A DNA stretch of 49,566 nt from Candidatus Angelobacter sp. (lineage in GTDB: Bacteria > Acidobacteriota > Terriglobia > Terriglobales > Acidobacteriaceae), in the NCBI GenBank assembly GCA_025462835.1, contig JAOAPH010000113.1, positions 1 to 49,566 on the forward strand, written 5' to 3'. Positions 17,011 to 26,052 of the stretch are shown here, piece by piece. A program made the translations under genes and the position numbers. The notes below the pieces were generated by a model, which saw only the letters and a list, made by a program, of their open reading frames with translations, ran no database searches and was not told where the DNA came from. Positions within the stretch are counted from its first letter, which is position 1. The number at the start of each line of letters is the position of its first letter.

Positions 17011-17037
17011 TAGGCTGATAGCTAGCTGCTGACAGCG
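17011..17037 (+). repeat. Degenerate heptamer array at the nifS 3' end
   Basis: Starting at G17010, GTAGGCT, GATAGCT, AGCTGCT, GACAGCG follow in seven-base register across the stop codon of the cysteine desulfurase gene and the gap to mnmA. It has the same period and a similar GCT core as the arrays at 15753 and 15851. Confidence 0.5.
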
Positions 17038-18191
17038 ATCTTCTTATTATAAACGGGGCTCAGTTCGCGCAGGCGCGCGACTGTATCTGGCAGGATCGAG
17101 AGAGCAAAATCGATATCGGCTTCAGTATTGTGCTTACCCAAGCTGAAACGGATACTGGCGCGTGCCTGGTCGGGAGGAAGTCCCATGGCAGTGAGAACGT
17201 GTGAGGGCTCTATCGCCCCGGAGGAGCATGCGGCGCCGGTGGAGACTGCCAATCCCTTCAAATCGAGGGCGATGATCAGCGCTTCGCCTTCGATGTGGTC
17301 GATGTGAATGTTGGTGGTGTTAGGAACACGCGGCGCGTTCTCGCCGTTGAGGCCAGCGTCGTCGATGTTCTTAAGGATTGACGCTTCGAGGCGGTCGCGC
17401 ATGGCAGCAATCTTCTGGACGGTGCCGTCGGCGAATGCTTGCATGGCCAGATCGGCTGCCTTGCCTAAGCCGACAATACCGGGAAGGTTCTCCGTTCCAG
17501 CGCGGCGCTGGCGTTCGTGATTGCCGCCGATGAGCATCGGCTTCAATAGAGTTCCCTTGCGGACGAACAGCGCACCTGTGCCTTGCGGCGCGTGCATTTT
17601 GTGTCCGGAGATGGAAAGCAGATCGCACCCGATCTTTTTGACGTCGATTGGAACTTTGGCGGCGGCTTGCACGGCGTCTGTGTGGAACGTCACTCCCGCT
17701 TCCCTGGCAATGCGGCCAATCTCTTCGACGGGTTGCAAGACTCCCGTCTCATTATTGGCCATCATGATGCTAATGAGCTTGGTGTTGGGGCGAATGGCAG
17801 AGCGGACAAGATCAAGATCGACGACTCCGCGGGAATCAAGGTCAACGTAGGTGACTGCAATCCCGCGCTCCTCAAGCACCTTGCACGCATTCAACACAGC
17901 GTGATGCTCGATGGTGGATGTAATCACGTGGTCGCCGGGGCCGGCGATTCCAAACACTCCAAGGTTGTCGCTCTCGGTGCCACCGCTGGTGAAGACCATT
18001 TCCGCGGCCCGGCATCCGAGAAGCTTGGCAACCGATTCCCGCGCCTTCTCCACCGCCGAGCGGGCGTGCTGGCCGTAATGGTGAATCGATGAGGCGTTCC
18101 CGAAAAGCTCGAGATAGTACGGACGCATCGCTTCCAGTACCTCAGGGAGGACCGGCGTGGTGGCGTTGCTGTCCATGTAAATCCGTTGCAT
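17022..18191 (-). CDS. Cysteine desulfurase, NifS/IscS family
   Basis: This PLP enzyme takes sulfur from cysteine as an enzyme persulfide. The 389-residue protein starts IYMDSNATTPVLPEVLEAM. PLP binding is shown by TSGGTESDN, ANNETG and the Schiff-base Lys K198 in SGHKMHAPQG. The catalytic Cys is C322 in STGAACSSGAIEPSHVL. Length and the short catalytic loop fit the NifS-like branch. With mnmA following at 18 bases, its likely main role is sulfur supply for tRNA thiolation; Fe-S assembly is possible, though no iscU or regulator is adjacent. Confidence 0.93.
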   Translation of the reverse strand: MQRIYMDSNATTPVLPEVLEAMRPYYLELFGNASSIHHYGQHARSAVEKARESVAKLLGCRAAEMVFTSGGTESDNLGVFGIAGPGDHVITSTIEHHAVLNACKVLEERGIAVTYVDLDSRGVVDLDLVRSAIRPNTKLISIMMANNETGVLQPVEEIGRIAREAGVTFHTDAVQAAAKVPIDVKKIGCDLLSISGHKMHAPQGTGALFVRKGTLLKPMLIGGNHERQRRAGTENLPGIVGLGKAADLAMQAFADGTVQKIAAMRDRLEASILKNIDDAGLNGENAPRVPNTTNIHIDHIEGEALIIALDLKGLAVSTGAACSSGAIEPSHVLTAMGLPPDQARASIRFSLGKHNTEADIDFALSILPDTVARLRELSPVYNKKIAVSS

Positions 18192-18429: not shown

Positions 18430-18458
18430 TTGACACGTCATACTGTTTTGCCCATACT
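18430..18458 (+). promoter_or_regulatory. Sigma70 promoter for the Tyr leader peptide and phhA
   Basis: TTGACA (18430-18435), a spacer of exactly 17 bases, then CATACT (18453-18458). The start point six or seven bases later falls at about 18465, which is the A of the leader-peptide ATG. No Shine-Dalgarno sequence lies between the -10 box and that ATG. Both facts point to leaderless translation of the leader peptide. Confidence 0.8.
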
Positions 18459-18464
18459 CTCTCC

Positions 18465-18542
18465 ATGCGCTTCACTGCGACCTACGCCTATTATTACTAC
18501 GCGACCCTAGACACGGGACGTGTGCGGAGGCGTATGCGCTAG
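18465..18542 (+). CDS. Tyrosine-rich leader peptide of the phhA attenuator
   Basis: ATG to TAG encodes 25 residues: M-R-F-T-A-T, then Y-A-Y-Y-Y-Y (residues 7-12, codons TAC GCC TAT TAT TAC TAC at 18483-18500), then a basic tail ending R-R-R-M-R. Five Tyr in six codons is the pattern of an amino-acid-sensing leader peptide. It begins at the predicted transcription start. Its stop lies 22 bases before a strong terminator, followed at once by the gene for the Tyr-forming enzyme. A ribosome waiting on the Tyr codons would leave 18512-18520 free to form the antiterminator. I know of no described leader peptide for this enzyme family. Confidence 0.85.
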   Translation: MRFTATYAYYYYATLDTGRVRRRMR

Positions 18543-18576
18543 GCGCGCAGACAAATCAAATCACAAACGGCCCGTG
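18512..18576 (+). promoter_or_regulatory. Antiterminator pairing segments of the phhA leader
   Basis: CACGGGACG (18512-18520, inside the leader peptide just after the Tyr codons) can pair with CGGCCCGTG (18568-18576), the left arm of the terminator, with eight of nine bases matched. It mimics the terminator's right arm (CACGGGCCG, 18585-18593), so the two structures exclude each other. The segment can also fold into a small local hairpin, ACAC-gggac-GTGT (18511-18523). Confidence 0.7.
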
Positions 18577-18603
18577 AGAAACCTCACGGGCCGTTTTCTT
18601 TTT
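18565..18603 (+). terminator. Attenuator terminator in front of phhA
   Basis: AAACGGCCCGTGAG (18565-18578), loop AAAC, CTCACGGGCCGTTT (18583-18596): a perfect 14-pair stem followed by the T-rich run TTTTCTTTTT ending at 18603. The phhA Shine-Dalgarno GGAGG starts at the next base. A terminator in front of a gene rather than behind one marks this as an attenuator. Confidence 0.92.
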
Positions 18604-18613
18604 GGAGGCAATA

Positions 18614-19366
18614 ATGATTGAAGCAGTGACAAACGAATCGGAAGCATTCATAGAACAGAATTGGAACGCCTATCTGCCGGAGCAACACGAGATCTGGAGC
18701 ATTCTCTTCTCGCGGCGCATGGCACAACTCAGAGATGCAGGAAGCAGTGCATTCTGCAACGGCATAGATCGGATCGGGCTGGTGCAGGACCGCGTGCCTG
18801 ATCTGGAGCTAGTCAATTCCCGACTGGAGGCGCTTACCGGATGGCGAGCTGTCCCGGTCAGTGGGTTTCTCGACGCCAAGCTGTTCTTCAAATGCCTGTC
18901 CCAGCGGCGATTCCCCACAACAATCATTGTGCGCACCAGAGAACAAATGGATTATCTTCCCGAGCCCGACATCTTTCACGATGTCTTCGGCCACGTGCCG
19001 CTGCACAGCGATGCGACCTTTGCGGATTTCCTGCATCGCTTTGGAGCGGTTGCGGCTTCGGCGCAGACGGAGAAAGAAGTGAAGCTACTGACGAGGCTGT
19101 TCTGGTTCACCGTGGAATTCGGGCTTATCGAAGAGAGTGGAGTGACCAAGGTCTATGGCAGCGGATTAATCTCGTCGGCGGCCGATTGCGCTAAGGCACT
19201 GGGGCCGAACTGCGAGCGGCGTCCCTTTTCGCTGGATGCGGTGTTCAAGCAGGATTTCGAAGTCGACCAGCTTCAGACCGTATTATTCGTGGTGAGGTCT
19301 TTCGAGCAGTTGTTTGAAGCGGCAGAAGAGGCACTGCAAAGATTGAAGAGTGGATCGCTTGCGTAA
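18614..19366 (+). CDS. phhA: Phenylalanine 4-monooxygenase
   Basis: This enzyme hydroxylates phenylalanine to tyrosine with tetrahydropterin, O2 and Fe(II). The 250-residue monomer matches the bacterial catalytic-domain-only form, with no ACT domain. The iron ligands are H122 and H127 in PDIFHDVFGHVPLHSD and E168 in FWFTVEFGL. The start at 18614 is set by GGAGG (18604-18608). The upstream Tyr leader peptide and terminator imply that it is made when tyrosine-charged tRNA is short, i.e. as a tyrosine biosynthetic enzyme rather than a phenylalanine catabolic one. No pterin-recycling dehydratase (phhB) is adjacent. Its stop codon lies in a 26-base tandem duplication. Confidence 0.94.
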   Translation: MIEAVTNESEAFIEQNWNAYLPEQHEIWSILFSRRMAQLRDAGSSAFCNGIDRIGLVQDRVPDLELVNSRLEALTGWRAVPVSGFLDAKLFFKCLSQRRFPTTIIVRTREQMDYLPEPDIFHDVFGHVPLHSDATFADFLHRFGAVAASAQTEKEVKLLTRLFWFTVEFGLIEESGVTKVYGSGLISSAADCAKALGPNCERRPFSLDAVFKQDFEVDQLQTVLFVVRSFEQLFEAAEEALQRLKSGSLA

Positions 19367-19887: not shown

Positions 19888-19972
19888 CCCGACACCTTAA
19901 GTTAACCCTCCCGTTTTTTCAACTAATTCATTTTGGGCTCCGTTGAAAATGCGGACCATAGGAGTCGCTCGC

Positions 19973-22378
19973 ATGGCGACACAAGCAGCGGCGATGTCGG
20001 GTTATATCGCGGACTTCGCCGCAAAGCTGCTTTCCGAACGCGAAGTAATCCCCCGCGCTGAAGTCATCGTCTCCCAAATCTCCGAGTTCTTCCCCGAAGC
20101 GGGCGTAGTCCTTTATCTGCTGGAAGAGAATGACAGCGAAGCGCATTGGAAATTCAAAGCATCGAGGGGAAACGTTTCCGTGCCCAAGCATTCGGTCCCG
20201 CGCGATTCAGGCACCTTGGCGGAAGCGTGGCGAAAACGCGAACCTATCGTCTTTGGCGGTGGATTGACCTCGCGTGAACAGTATTCGCATATCGATGTCC
20301 GGCGCACTGTCATGTCGATCGGGTATCTGCCTATCGCCATTGACGAAGTCTTTCTCGGGCTCATAGAGATCGTCAGCTTTGATCGCCAGATTGAAGCCGC
20401 AGAATTACAACGATTGGAAGCTTGTGCGGATTTCAGCGCTCTGGCCCTTGCGACAGCACTGGCTTACGAGAACGAGCGCAACGGGCAGTTTGAATCCATC
20501 AATCGGATGACCCAGCTCTATGACCTGGAACGTTCCTTCAATTCCACATTGAAGCTGGACACCCTGCTCCCCATCATCACTTCGAAGATCCGCGAGACTT
20601 TAGACGTGCAGGCGGTGAATCTGTGGATGGTGGAAGAAGATTCAGTCGTTCTGATGAGCCGGGCTGGTGAAGATCCCACGACAGAGGTAGGAGCTTTCCA
20701 GAAGTCGGGTGAAGGCATTGCGTCGGAGGTCTCCGACAATGGCAAAGGTGTAGTCATCCATAAAGCCAGCGACGAACGGCTGGTAAAGCGCAACGAAACG
20801 TCGCCGGAAAAGCCAGTGCGGGCGATCATCGCCGTGCCTATCGTGTCAATGAATTACCAGGTTGGTGTGCTCGAAGTCATCAATCGGATGGATGGCAAAC
20901 TTTTCACCGAGGACGATGTCTTCTTCATCAACACGATCCTGATCACAGTGGGAAGCGCGCTGCACAACGCCAGCCTGCTCGAAGCCGAGCGCAAGATCCA
21001 GATATTGGAAACACTGGTTGAAGTGAGCCGGGAGATCACATCCAGCCTCAACACAGACCGCATCATTCAACTCGTGGTTAACGGTCCGCAAAAGATCATG
21101 ACATATGACCGGGCGACGGTCGCATTGGAACACCACGGCAAGTTGCAGTTGAAGGCCATCTCCGGAAAGACCGAAATAAATTCGGCTGAGCCCAGCGTAA
21201 AGGTCCTGCGCGGAATACTTGAATGGGCGATGCACTCGGAAGAGGAGGTTTACGTCGTACAACATGGAACCCGTGTCGACGCCGACCGCGAAGAGACACG
21301 ACTTAAGTTTCAGGAATATTTTTCGCAGACGGGACAACGCGCTTTTTATTCCGTGCCGCTCGCGGATGAGCAAGGGCGGCTTGGCGTTCTTTCATTCGAG
21401 AGCCGCAATCCGGATTTCCTTAGCGACACGCATTTCGAGTTGATCAAAGTGCTGGCTAGCCAGACGACGGTCGCTCTGCGTAATGCTTCTTTGTACAAAG
21501 AGGTTCCATTCATCGGTGTTCTGGAACCACTGCTGCAAAAGAAACACGAGTTCATGGCGATGAATTCGCGGAGGCGATCCGCCTATGTGGTGTTGTCGGT
21601 GGCAACTGCGCTGTTCCTCGTATTGTGTCCGCTGCCGTTGAGGGTGGTTGGCGACGCGACTGTGACCCCGGAGACCACAAGCAAGATTCAGACGCCAGTA
21701 GACGGCGTGGTCGCAAAGGTTTTTGTCCGCGAGGGCGACGCGGTCAAAGCTGGGGCTATCCTCGCCGACCTGGAAGATTGGGACTACCGAAGCGCGTTGG
21801 CGTCTGCACGAGCAAAATATGCGACCGCGAGCGCGGAGATGAATCGCGCGCTCTCCGCGAAGGATGGATCAGAAGCGGGTATCCAGCGGCTGCAAGTGGA
21901 TTACTGGGCTTCTGAAGTGGCGCGGGCCCGCGAGCGCCTGGAGAAAACACATCTTCGAGCGACGCAGGACGGTATCGTCGCCACTCCGCACATGGAAGAG
22001 ATGGTGGGCCGCAAGCTGGACTTGGGAGACACTGTGGCTACGGTCGTGAGTTCTGAGCGTGCGCAGGTGGATATCGCGATCGATGAAGAAGATGTTCCCC
22101 TGATTCAGAACGGCGACAACGTCGCCATCAAGATTGAGAGCTTCCCCACTAGGAAATTTACCGGAGCCGTGAGCGTGATCAGTCCGGTTAGCACCGCGGA
22201 GCTGGACAAGCGGGTCTTCTACGCGCGAGTTTCCGTTCCAAACTCTGAGGGCTTGATGCGCCCCGGGATGCAGGGTCGGGGAAAGATCTCCGCAGGATGG
22301 CACCGCGCGGGATTCGTCCTCTTTCGGGGCGTCGGCATGTGGGCTTGGTCAAAGATCTGGACTTGGTTCGGTTGGTAA
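19973..22378 (+). CDS. Triple-GAF / HlyD membrane-fusion hybrid protein
   Basis: About 801 residues. Three GAF-like sensor segments fill residues 10-530: the first up to about 170, the second around LERSFNSTLKLDTLLP to LHNASLLEAERK, the third from VEVSREITSSLNTDRI to TVALRNASLYKE. A membrane helix follows (YVVLSVATALFLVLCPLPL). The C-terminal 230 residues are a periplasmic-adaptor module: lipoyl half (KIQTPVDGVVAKVFVREGDAVKAGAIL), short coiled coil, second lipoyl half (LRATQDGIVATPHMEEMVGRK in part) and beta barrel. It thus joins a cytoplasmic sensor to an export-type domain in one chain. GGAG at 19961-19964 supports the start at 19973. First gene of a three-gene operon. Confidence 0.85.
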   Translation: MATQAAAMSGYIADFAAKLLSEREVIPRAEVIVSQISEFFPEAGVVLYLLEENDSEAHWKFKASRGNVSVPKHSVPRDSGTLAEAWRKREPIVFGGGLTSREQYSHIDVRRTVMSIGYLPIAIDEVFLGLIEIVSFDRQIEAAELQRLEACADFSALALATALAYENERNGQFESINRMTQLYDLERSFNSTLKLDTLLPIITSKIRETLDVQAVNLWMVEEDSVVLMSRAGEDPTTEVGAFQKSGEGIASEVSDNGKGVVIHKASDERLVKRNETSPEKPVRAIIAVPIVSMNYQVGVLEVINRMDGKLFTEDDVFFINTILITVGSALHNASLLEAERKIQILETLVEVSREITSSLNTDRIIQLVVNGPQKIMTYDRATVALEHHGKLQLKAISGKTEINSAEPSVKVLRGILEWAMHSEEEVYVVQHGTRVDADREETRLKFQEYFSQTGQRAFYSVPLADEQGRLGVLSFESRNPDFLSDTHFELIKVLASQTTVALRNASLYKEVPFIGVLEPLLQKKHEFMAMNSRRRSAYVVLSVATALFLVLCPLPLRVVGDATVTPETTSKIQTPVDGVVAKVFVREGDAVKAGAILADLEDWDYRSALASARAKYATASAEMNRALSAKDGSEAGIQRLQVDYWASEVARARERLEKTHLRATQDGIVATPHMEEMVGRKLDLGDTVATVVSSERAQVDIAIDEEDVPLIQNGDNVAIKIESFPTRKFTGAVSVISPVSTAELDKRVFYARVSVPNSEGLMRPGMQGRGKISAGWHRAGFVLFRGVGMWAWSKIWTWFGW

Positions 22379-22404
22379 CCAGTAATAACGCTCGAGGAGG
22401 TCTT

Positions 22405-23301
22405 GTGAGCTACAGGAAATCTGTGTGGGTGATCGTGGGAATCGGGACGACTCTGCTGATTGGCTGCAGCAGTGACCGCCCGGCTAACGTTGCGACTGCC
22501 GCCGCGGCGGCTCCAGTCCATGCAGCCTCTCCGGTTTCCGCGCCCGCGAATTACTACGAAACCTCCGGTGTGCTGGTTGTTGAGAACCAGGTGGACGTGC
22601 AAGCGCAGCGGGATGGTGTGCTGTCAGAGATTATGGTTGACACGGGTTCCCGAGTACAAAAAGGACAAATACTCGCGCGGATCGATGATCGCCAACTGCA
22701 GGCCGACCGCGAAGCGGCAGATGCGAAGATCCGCAGCATCGAGGCGGACCTGCAGACGTGGGAGGCAGATGCAAAGGTACTGCAAAGCGATTACGAGCGC
22801 GATCAAGAGATGTTCAAGGCGCAATTGATCACCGAAAAACAGTTGGAGCATTCGCATTACAAAATGATCGGCTCCGGATTTCAACTGGAGCGGGAGAAGC
22901 AAAACGTCCGCAACGCCAAAGCTACACTGCAATCGCTGGACCTCGAGATCGAGAAAACACGCATCGCGGCTCCATTCGCGGGGGTCGTTGCACGGCGATA
23001 TGTGCGGTCGGGGCAAAAAGTCGCGCCAAATGACCGACTCTTCTGGGTCACCGCCACTAGCCCGGTAAACGTTCAGTTCACGCTGCCGGAATCGTTCCGC
23101 GGAAAGATTACCACGGCGCAAGAGATCACGGTGCTGTCACCGCTGTCGCCCAAGGAGACACATCTGGCGAAGGTGCGGACTGTCAGTCCAGTGGTTGACC
23201 CTGCCAGCGGAACGATCGAAGTGCTGGCGGAGTTGGCCGACAACTCTGACCAGATGATGCCCGGTACCAGCGCGGTGGTGCGCGTGGCCAAGCCAAAATG
23301 A
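22405..23301 (+). CDS. HlyD/RND-type periplasmic adaptor lipoprotein
   Basis: 298 residues from a GTG start with GAGGAGG six bases upstream. The signal peptide ends in a lipobox (TTLLIGC, Cys about residue 20), so the protein should be lipid-anchored. The adaptor layout is complete: lipoyl half (VQAQRDGVLSEIMVDTGSRVQKGQ in part), helical hairpin (about 80-160, with FKAQLITEKQLEHSHYK), second lipoyl half (KTRIAAPFAGVVARRYVRSGQ in part), beta barrel and end (VVRVAKPK). It links an inner-membrane partner to an outer component. It begins 26 bases after the GAF-HlyD gene; the next gene overlaps its stop (ATGA). Confidence 0.88.
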   Translation: MSYRKSVWVIVGIGTTLLIGCSSDRPANVATAAAAAPVHAASPVSAPANYYETSGVLVVENQVDVQAQRDGVLSEIMVDTGSRVQKGQILARIDDRQLQADREAADAKIRSIEADLQTWEADAKVLQSDYERDQEMFKAQLITEKQLEHSHYKMIGSGFQLEREKQNVRNAKATLQSLDLEIEKTRIAAPFAGVVARRYVRSGQKVAPNDRLFWVTATSPVNVQFTLPESFRGKITTAQEITVLSPLSPKETHLAKVRTVSPVVDPASGTIEVLAELADNSDQMMPGTSAVVRVAKPK

Positions 23302-25457
23302 ACCTCACCCAAGTAATGAATGTGACGCTACCCGATCCCCCGGCAGCGCGGATGCAAGAAACATTCCCTTGTGCACATCCCAAGATGATCGCGCGCGATC
23401 ACCACGAGCGAGAAGGCCACATGATCCACGTGATCATCCCGGATGGGCCGTCGCATTTCTTCCGCTTCAGCAAACAACAGTTCGAGCTCATCAAGCTTTT
23501 TGACGGTCGGCGGTCGTACGCTGAAATCGCACGGCTGTTCACACGCACACAGGGCATTGGCATCAACGCGGAGTTTGTCCAGACCTTTGCCGACAACATG
23601 GAGAAGAAGGAGTTCTGGTATCGGACTCCGCAAGAAGAGAGCATCACGCTTTTCAACAAACTGGCCAGCGATCGCCACAAGGCGCTGCAAAAAAAACACG
23701 GCAAGAGTAGCGCGAGTGATTTGGCGATCATTGAGCTTATCTATTTCGATCCGGACAAATACTTGAATTGGATCCATGGCAAACTCAAGTTCGTTTACAC
23801 CACATGGTTCACAATGTTTGCGCTGGTGATGGTAGTGGTGATGTGCGTGATCCTGGGCGCGCGCTGGGATGAAGTTTGGGCCGACAGCGTGAAATTCTAC
23901 AACTTCACGCAAAAAGGGCTGCTGGATCTAGTTGAATTTTTTCTTGTTTTTGCGCTACTGGGGGCAGTGCATGAGACTGCGCATGGAATGACGTGCAAGC
24001 ACTTTGGGGGCGAGTCGCACAAAATGGGTGCGTTCCTTATGTACCTGATGCCCGGCGTGTTTTGCGACGTAACGCAAATCTATGTCTATGGCGGGCGATG
24101 GCAACGAGTGGCGACGCTGTTGGCCGGAGTGTGGTCAGAGATCATTATTTGTACCTGGGTAACGATCCTGTGGTGGCTGACGCCGCAAGGGACTTGGCTG
24201 CACGATATCGCCTACAAGTTCATTCTCAGCGGCGGCATATTCGTGATCATCATCAACCTGAATCCGCTGGCGAGGATGGATGGTTATTACATCTTCTGCG
24301 AACTCACGCGGTTCTTTGACCTGAAGGGCAACTCCACTGCCCTGCTTTCCAACTCGGTGCGGAAATATATCTTCCGCATGCCTGCGACCGTGCCGATCTT
24401 GCCGTGGCGTCGCAGATTGTTCTTCTTGGCATACGGTGCGGTGGCGGGAATGTACAGCTACCTGCTGCTGTTGTTCTTTGTCCGAATCAGCTATCGCATC
24501 TTTTTCAACTATTCTCCGGAATGGGCATTCGTGCCCGCCGGATGCATGGCGTGCATGATCTTCAAGTCCAGGATCAAAAAGCTTATGGCATTCCTTAAAG
24601 CGTTGTATCTCGATAAGCGTGAACTTGTGGCCACCCACTGGAAGCAGATTAGCTTGGGAATGGCGGTGGTTATTGTTCTGGCCAGCATTCCAGTGTGGCG
24701 TGATTCAGTGGAAGAACGTTTCGTGCTTGAGCCCGCGCAGAAAACAACTTTGCGTGCCACGGTGCCGGGAACGGTGCTGGAGGTGGCGGCTGATGAAGGC
24801 GAGCGTGTTTCCGCCGGACAGCCAATAGCAATCCTGCGCGACTTGCAGCTGGAATCGGATGCGGCCAAAGCTAGTGCTGAGTACGGGCAAGCTGCAGCCC
24901 ACAGCGTGCAGGCGCAATTACGGTATGCGACGTACTCTTCCGCCGAACAAGATCGCCAACGGCTAGCCGAATCCGTGCGGCAAGTCTCCGAACGCCGTCG
25001 GCAGCTTTCCATCGAGAGTCCGATTTCAGGGATCGTTACGACGCCGCATGTGCATGATCTGGTCGGGAGCTATATCCCGGCAGGAACCTTGGTGGCGGAG
25101 GTTGCGGACACTTCGTACATGCGAGCGCAGATTTACGTCCAGGAAGATGAGTTCCAAAACATTCAGCAGATCAACAAAGCGATCTTACGGATGGACGCTA
25201 ACTGGGTTCCGGTGAGAGCGAGTTTTACATCATTCAGTCCAGTGTCGCAGGAGCTGCCTGCCGGGCTGATGCCGCCGGCGAAATACAAGGGGATGCATCC
25301 GCCGGTCTATTACGTGATGGAGATGCACGTTGACAATGAAAGCGGAAAGTTGCGATCAGGGATGACGGGGACCGCAAAAGTGTACGGCGAACGGCGCAGC
25401 ACGATTGCGAAGGTATTTCGTCCCGTGGTGGAAGCGGTGGCAAGACGTTTGTGGTAG
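23298..25457 (+). CDS. PqqD-like / M50 site-2-type protease / HlyD fusion protein
   Basis: 719 residues. The N-terminal 110 residues resemble a PqqD-like peptide-binding fold (FRFSKQQFELIKLFDGRRSYAEI). The membrane core of about eight helices has the zinc-protease motif HETAH (H225-H229) and a second motif N-L-N-P-L-A-R-M-D-G near residue 325, both typical of M50 proteases. From about residue 480 a lipoyl/HlyD-like domain follows (TTLRATVPGTVLEVAADEGERVSAGQ in part, then coiled coil, then SPISGIVTTPHVHDLVG). Such proteins are annotated as putative peptide zinc metalloproteases and occur with peptide-export systems. ATG overlaps the upstream stop. The repeat-protein gene converges on its 3' end. 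Confidence 0.85.
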   Translation: MNLTQVMNVTLPDPPAARMQETFPCAHPKMIARDHHEREGHMIHVIIPDGPSHFFRFSKQQFELIKLFDGRRSYAEIARLFTRTQGIGINAEFVQTFADNMEKKEFWYRTPQEESITLFNKLASDRHKALQKKHGKSSASDLAIIELIYFDPDKYLNWIHGKLKFVYTTWFTMFALVMVVVMCVILGARWDEVWADSVKFYNFTQKGLLDLVEFFLVFALLGAVHETAHGMTCKHFGGESHKMGAFLMYLMPGVFCDVTQIYVYGGRWQRVATLLAGVWSEIIICTWVTILWWLTPQGTWLHDIAYKFILSGGIFVIIINLNPLARMDGYYIFCELTRFFDLKGNSTALLSNSVRKYIFRMPATVPILPWRRRLFFLAYGAVAGMYSYLLLLFFVRISYRIFFNYSPEWAFVPAGCMACMIFKSRIKKLMAFLKALYLDKRELVATHWKQISLGMAVVIVLASIPVWRDSVEERFVLEPAQKTTLRATVPGTVLEVAADEGERVSAGQPIAILRDLQLESDAAKASAEYGQAAAHSVQAQLRYATYSSAEQDRQRLAESVRQVSERRRQLSIESPISGIVTTPHVHDLVGSYIPAGTLVAEVADTSYMRAQIYVQEDEFQNIQQINKAILRMDANWVPVRASFTSFSPVSQELPAGLMPPAKYKGMHPPVYYVMEMHVDNESGKLRSGMTGTAKVYGERRSTIAKVFRPVVEAVARRLW

Positions 25458-25470
25458 TTGATGGAACCGC

Positions 25471-25507
25471 AAAAAAAGGGCTGAGCGAAATCGCTCAGCC
25501 CCGTTTT
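25471..25507. terminator. Terminator shared by the M50 gene and the repeat-protein gene
   Basis: GGGCTGAGCG (25478-25487), loop AAAT, CGCTCAGCCC (25492-25501). On the minus strand the ten-pair stem is followed by seven T (25477-25471), a textbook terminator for the repeat-protein gene. On the plus strand it is followed by CGTTTTCTC, a weaker one for the operon. Confidence 0.93.
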
Positions 25508-25519
25508 CTCTCTCCGAAG

Positions 25520-26008
25520 TTACTCAATGGTGTGAGATACGGAACCCGCATCAGCGGCCAAAGAGCCAGCATCGGCGGCCATCGAACCCGCATCCGCAGC
25601 CATGGAGCCAGCGTCCGCAGCCATCGAACCTGCATCGGCGGCCATGGAGCCTGCGTCAGCCGCCATGGAACCAGCGTCTGCTGCCATGGAGCCTGCATCA
25701 GCAGCCATAGAGCCGGCGTCCGCAGCCATAGAACCAGCATCAGCGGCCAGGGAGCCAGCGTCAGCAGCCATAGAACCCGCATCGGCTGCCATAGATCCAG
25801 CATCGGCTGCGAGTGAACCTGCATCCGCGGCCATCGAACCGGCGTCGGCTGCCATGGAACCGGCATCGGCGCACATTGAACCTGCATCAGCAGCAAAAGA
25901 CCCAGCATCGGCCGACATGGAACCGGCGTCAGCAGAGATTCCGGAACGCGAAGCGATTAAAGCCTTTTTCGCCGCTGCGCGGGTAGTGATCAAGCTCTTT
26001 TTCTCCAT
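25520..26008 (-). CDS. Heptapeptide-repeat protein, 19 units of AADAGS(M)
   Basis: 162 residues. A basic, Ala-rich head of 24 residues (MEKKSLITTRAAAKKALIAS...) is followed by 19 tandem seven-residue units, consensus A-A-D-A-G-S-[M/L/F/V], and the tail SHTIE. No signal peptide or aromatic-rich part is visible; one unit has Cys (M-C-ADAGS). The minus-strand frame is favoured because the variable position changes only among M, L, F and V there. The opposite strand's open frame (E-P-A-S-A-A-x) would vary among M, I, R, S, K and H. The minus-strand gene also has a GAGGA upstream, a sigma54 promoter and its own terminator. I do not recognise the family. Next to a PqqD/M50/HlyD operon it may be an exported or processed peptide. 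Confidence 0.82.
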   Translation of the reverse strand: MEKKSLITTRAAAKKALIASRSGISADAGSMSADAGSFAADAGSMCADAGSMAADAGSMAADAGSLAADAGSMAADAGSMAADAGSLAADAGSMAADAGSMAADAGSMAADAGSMAADAGSMAADAGSMAADAGSMAADAGSMAADAGSLAADAGSVSHTIE

Positions 26009-26052
26009 CTCTGTGTCCTCAATCTTTCAAAGTTTTTAGAATTTTTTTTGGG

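Follow-up and report, generated by a model that had tools for sequence, protein, structure and literature searches.

The gene for phenylalanine 4-monooxygenase (phhA) in the stretch of Acidobacteriota DNA analysed here (49,566 nt, hereafter the window) is very probably controlled by a ribosome-mediated attenuator of the trp type that senses charged Tyr-tRNA, and its product would replace the lost TyrA as the maker of tyrosine. In bacteria, phenylalanine hydroxylase is generally assigned to catabolism, and TyrA-less organisms can be mistaken for tyrosine auxotrophs. With a Tyr-codon attenuator ahead of phhA, the sequence alone would mark the enzyme as biosynthetic. We also lean toward a broader proposal, that TyrA-less Acidobacteriota have repeatedly put phhA behind independent Tyr-codon attenuators, which are leaderless in the genus of the window. 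These would form the first Tyr-specific class of ribosome-mediated attenuators and show an enzyme of catabolic type convergently rewired for feedback-controlled biosynthesis. The leader-bearing group of Acidobacteriota consists of soil bacteria.

The promoter, leader, Tyr run, antiterminator strand, terminator, GGAGG and phhA named in the sequence-only reading were all recovered base for base, on the forward strand. The sigma-70-type promoter TTGACA-17-CATACT (TTGACA at 18430-18435, CATACT at 18453-18458) has 10 of 12 consensus bases, and one other promoter-like site occurs in 2 kb. This promoter precedes a leader ORF of 25 codons plus TAG, MRFTATYAYYYYATLDTGRVRRRMR (18465-18542, with ATG at 18465 and TAG at 18540-18542). 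Codons 7-12 of this ORF, TAC GCC TAT TAT TAC TAC (18483-18500), include five Tyr codons (18483-18485 and 18489-18500), and the cluster is kept in four genomes of the genus. The antiterminator strand CACGGGACGTGTG (18512-18524) contains CACGGGACG at 18512-18520 and starts 14 nt downstream of the position where the last Tyr codon begins. Its partner, CACA (18560-18563) and CGGCCCGTG in 18560-18576, overlaps the left arm of the intrinsic terminator (18565-18602). The terminator stem, between the leader ORF and phhA, is a perfect 14 bp (18565-18596; arms 18565-18578 and 18583-18596, loop AAAC), and a T-run follows to 18602. The competing pairing of 18512-18520 with 18568-18576, proposed from the outset, is present and was found to extend to 18524 through the CACA at 18560-18563. 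The Shine-Dalgarno sequence GGAGG of phhA (18603-18607) lies outside the terminator stem. The gene itself (18614-19366, ATG at 18614) encodes 250 aa, and its identity is firm: 299 bits against NF008877 (phenylalanine 4-monooxygenase; cut-off 247), 149 bits against PF00351, and E = 2e-51 to a solved bacterial phenylalanine hydroxylase. Folding energies agree with a structured leader, the RNA reaching -60.1 kcal/mol (z = -5.5; 0/200 shuffles equally stable). The minimum free energy fold of the free leader RNA adds an element absent from the earlier description, an anti-antiterminator hairpin (18483-18534; pairs 18483-18489/18528-18534, 18498-18503/18519-18524 and 18505-18507/18515-18517), which is predicted to mask the antiterminator strand in RNA without a ribosome.

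From these parts the following order of events may be proposed. Transcription would begin at the leader ATG or next to it, and translation of the leader would follow at once. When tyrosine is plentiful, the ribosome would pass the Tyr codons and mask 18512-18524, or, once the ribosome is gone, this strand would be paired within the 18483-18534 hairpin. Formation of the terminator (18565-18596) would then end transcription before phhA. When charged Tyr-tRNA is scarce, the ribosome would halt at codons 7-12 with its leading edge just upstream of 18512, and 18512-18524 would pair with the emerging 18560-18576, letting the polymerase continue into phhA. The two structures were compared by ribosome position: each leader was folded with a ribosome footprint at every codon and with the right arm of the terminator not yet made. 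For the window element, the computed probability of the antiterminator was 0.62 with Tyr codons 9-12 in the A site, 0.55 at codon 13 and 0.00 at codons 14-24; for the other elements, too, it was close to zero no more than a few codons past the Tyr stretch. Escherichia coli trpL and pheL gave a matching profile (gap 17 nt in trpL, 12 nt in pheL), and hisL a less sharp one. With the ribosome on the stop codon of the window leader the antiterminator partly reforms (P 0.48), as it does in several other elements. This is the least certain point of the model; at the decision the ribosome may still be upstream of the stop codon, or may be gone so that the 18483-18534 hairpin forms. At equilibrium, the finished terminator wins despite a stalled ribosome in all elements, E. 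coli controls included, so that antitermination must depend on kinetics. When single leaders were recoded synonymously, 2-38% of trials produced an antiterminator of equal strength, and one leader alone is thus weak evidence.

The element is conserved within the genus. Three of the four other genus genomes have phhA, and all three carry the leader element before it: MRFTATYAYYYYATLDTGRVRRRMR in G399, MRFTATYAYYYYATRDTGRVWRRMR in G304 and MRSTATYAYYYYATRSTGRVPRRMR in G401 (loci L031, L002 and L032). From the ATG to the T-run the element is nearly unchanged in these three genomes; the region upstream of the ATG has diverged. The order of the Tyr codons and their third bases are identical in four genus genomes. 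Among codons that keep their amino acid, third positions changed in 3/19 leader codons vs 90/162 phhA codons for G401, and in 2/21 vs 92/197 for G304 (Fisher p about 0.001 for each genome), which indicates that both the peptide and its nucleotide sequence are constrained. The -10 hexamer stands 6 nt before the leader ATG in each of the four genus genomes, although the promoter sequence differs; given this spacing, transcription probably begins on the ATG or next to it, and the leader mRNA is probably leaderless. When codons for Y-A-Y-Y-Y-Y-A-T were searched in 84,980 species (one genome each), six exact matches were obtained. Three are in short ORFs, all of them the phhA leader of this genus, and the remaining three lie inside long ORFs. 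The terminator is kept in all relatives with the leader. In the window lineage two of its pairs show double-sided changes (31/500 shuffles as high), and in the more distant genome G463 the stem is kept with two double-sided changes. No antiterminator pair changes on both sides in this lineage, where support comes from conservation, not covariation.

The same layout recurs outside the genus. Class- and phylum-wide searches gave 181 phhA upstream regions. A strong terminator-like hairpin is present in 18, and in 11 of these it follows a short ORF that contains a Tyr pair. The comparison of phhA upstream regions that had been proposed as a check thus yields a Tyr leader with a strong terminator in 11/181 regions. 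In the same scan, none of these terminators was preceded by a pair of any of eight other residues (W, F, H, C, M, N, D, Q), nor by a Tyr pair on the reverse strand; pairs of E (1), K (3) and I (3) were few. Outside the genus, the phhA leaders are MTSGTAEVTHSYYYGYPYWSRRRGEK (G002), MTKSLHRYRYYYGPLSIRRGGRAMGCRELTT (G424), MINRRHSYYYYYGPLSTWRDGRVMGCRGVIM (G470), MISQRHSYRYYSYYGPLSGWRDGRAMGCREMIS (G740), MINRSYSYCYYYYASYPAREAESGIGCKRVII (G750, second phhA copy), MRFDLRTYAYTVTHPGRVSVRPSS (G463) and VNFAAIIARRYYRPGGTRVA (G742), the last of which has two Tyr and is the weakest of the 11. Leaders turn up in three or more parts of the PhhA tree; as a label on the tree, the leader needs four changes, three of them forced by well-supported branches. 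The unrelated leaders have a design in common: their antiterminator strand begins 11-20 nt downstream of the final Tyr codon in the run, so placed that a ribosome stalled on the run would just expose it. G463 belongs to another class; its PhhA is sister to that of the window, with 59% identity vs about 52% for family-mates (support of the fork 93/66), and its leader element is homologous to that of the window. It scores 106 bits against RNA model R1, in whose construction it was itself included. Sister PhhA and homologous element together suggest that phhA and the attenuator travel together. In family f34, six terminator pairs (0/500 shuffles as high) and four antiterminator pairs (16/500 shuffles as high) show double-sided changes, and the shared left arm of the terminator covaries with both the leader strand and the right arm; these counts are modest because few sequences are available. 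For the order of G002, no relatives of its PhhA were found. Since the layout recurs in unrelated lineages of one phylum, the phhA attenuator is a credible and testable device.

Several other candidates in the upstream regions were set aside. The strong hairpins upstream of phhA in family f45 (L157-L159) resemble a terminator belonging to the gene before, and no Tyr leader accompanies them. Short GCACCAC...GTGGTG hairpins with a T-run occur just before phhA in family f6 (L073, L086, L091, L097), again with no Tyr leader, and many matches of RNA model R1 consist of the terminator only. A separate motif resembling GATGTATYCTTCTGC recurs some 30-100 nt before phhA in genus g4 of family f1 (L006-L009, L015, L016, L018, L019). 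One genome, G750, has two phhA copies, with a Tyr leader before the copy on C24 and none before that on C176; this pair is a natural test of biosynthetic versus other use.

The distribution of TyrA fits tyrosine synthesis by PhhA. No TyrA (PF02153) above the Pfam cut-off was found in any of the five genomes of the genus, including G304 with 100% completeness; the match in G399 reaches 20.7 bits, below the cut-off. TyrA is over the cut-off in 367 of 399 genomes of the class, and in every other family-f1 genome listed. Leader genomes and other phhA genomes differ (TyrA over the cut-off in 0/11 vs 43/69; Fisher p = 8e-5, or 0.01 with one genome per lineage), in a comparison set of 80 genomes that leaves out most members of family f36. 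By its own terms, the sequence-only reading would be refuted by relatives that keep phhA and lack the Tyr run. Within the genus there are none; outside it they exist, as in further genera of the same family (L003-L030 among them), which have no leader before phhA and have TyrA. Because the sampled family-mates all have TyrA, the contrast with them supports the model. In the phylum set, 26 of the 69 phhA genomes without a detected leader likewise have no TyrA above the cut-off, for example in genus g166 of family f34, so attenuation is one solution among several. The phhA genes of g166, a genus with most genomes lacking TyrA, neighbour a divergent Lrp/AsnC-like regulator gene and have no Tyr leader (L107, L112, L128, and others in L104-L128); this apparently is another route of phhA control. 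Full-length 4-hydroxyphenylpyruvate dioxygenase (HPD) is absent from the window's genus, where partial HPD-like matches stay below the cut-off, and pterin-4a-carbinolamine dehydratase, for pterin recycling, is present. Together with the absence of TyrA, these two findings support the biosynthetic role that had been ascribed to PhhA, which, judged by gene content, is most likely the tyrosine-synthesis enzyme of the genus. Prephenate dehydratase (PF00800) was found in G000 and G399 and not in G304 (rated 100% complete), G400 or G401, so import of phenylalanine may be needed in these three.

Taken as a Tyr-sensing trp-type device, the element is well supported: almost every feature open to a test on sequence behaves as expected. 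Genus conservation, third positions, recurrence, f34 covariation, modelled folding by ribosome position like that of trpL and pheL, and absence of TyrA all argue for it. Two rivals keep a small and equal share of probability. The first is an attenuator with another signal, either arrest by the nascent peptide or a general slowdown of translation, as in antibiotic-induced leaders. It could draw on the C-terminal part of the leader peptide, TGRVxRRMR, which is conserved in the genus, but this conservation is explained by the antiterminator and anti-antiterminator strands that the region encodes. Moreover, Tyr codons at the register position are the main feature shared by unrelated leaders, and the product of the downstream gene makes tyrosine, so we regard this rival as improbable. 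Just as improbable is a mixed Phe/Tyr or general aromatic sensor, such as AroR of Corynebacterium glutamicum with its Phe-Tyr-Phe leader (PMC11802643). Phe/Tyr leaders do stand before pheA-like genes elsewhere in Acidobacteriota (L203, L208, L209), and a single Phe codon is present in the window leader, as its third codon. However, this codon is Ser in G401, the remaining phhA leaders depend on Tyr, and a modelled stall at codon 3 leaves the antiterminator unfreed (P = 0.03). Even less should be given to a constitutive terminator and promoter around a fortuitous ORF. GC-rich terminators and short ORFs are common, but the third positions of this ORF are conserved and unrelated leaders recur; besides, the adjacent upstream gene (cysteine desulfurase-like, 17022-18191) lies on the reverse strand, which leaves the terminator without another evident nearby user. 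A T-box or other known riboswitch family would serve the same biological purpose, amino-acid or tRNA sensing, but has next to no probability, as no Rfam family reaches its gathering score in the leader region, and the best weak match, Thr_leader (21.5 bits vs a cut-off of 55), is itself a leader-peptide attenuator.

The proposed Tyr attenuator before phhA shares with trpL, pheL and hisL of E. coli a leader peptide with a run of codons for the regulated amino acid, an intrinsic terminator and, by prediction, an antiterminator exposed by stalling. It differs from them in its Tyr codons and in the regulated gene, a pterin-dependent hydroxylase. Its antiterminator strand also lies wholly within the leader ORF, at least 18 nt before the stop codon, and the leader is expected to have no 5' UTR, unlike in the E. 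coli attenuators. The aroR leader before the aroF operon of C. glutamicum likewise combines aromatic codons including Tyr with transcription attenuation; its F-Y-F codons are reported to answer to Phe, not Tyr, and it regulates DAHP synthase (PMC11802643). The probable leaderless leader also resembles the leaderless poly-cysteine short ORFs of mycobacteria cited in PMC13236596, which act as amino-acid-responsive attenuators; these respond to cysteine and are described there as translational control. As to novelty, the sequence-only reading holds in part: no Tyr-specific ribosome-mediated leader attenuator was found in the open-access literature searched, but a biosynthetic bacterial PhhA had already been described. 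In Dyella japonica and Legionella pneumophila, which belong to other phyla, PhhA makes tyrosine where TyrA is missing, with a leader attenuator unmentioned in the portion of that report consulted (PMC7311316). In an earlier survey, almost none of the attenuators predicted in Acidobacteria had an associated function (PMC2965389).

Matches to RNA model R1 extend beyond phhA. The leaders MFVDDRSRFYFYFYFPPSRGRGSMRAD and MNFSQFSSARYYFWYEPQPGLCRVARC precede prephenate dehydratase-like (pheA-like) genes (L203 and L208, both 1501-1633; L209, 1501-1632), and the Tyr leader MSLLERVHYYYGSHRPGP precedes a DAHP synthase-like gene (L213, 1501-1640), so aromatic leader attenuation may be widespread in Acidobacteriota. 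The link between the attenuator and TyrA loss also lets one test how regulation follows the replacement of an enzyme in an essential pathway. Two further observations concern the window downstream of phhA. Repeat-rich ORFs occupy both strands of the same DNA at 25451-26039, with EPASAA-type and ADAGSMA-type repeats. At 19943-25457, three consecutive genes, perhaps for an export system, encode one GAF/HlyD-like and one HlyD-like protein together with a membrane protein that carries an HETAH motif.
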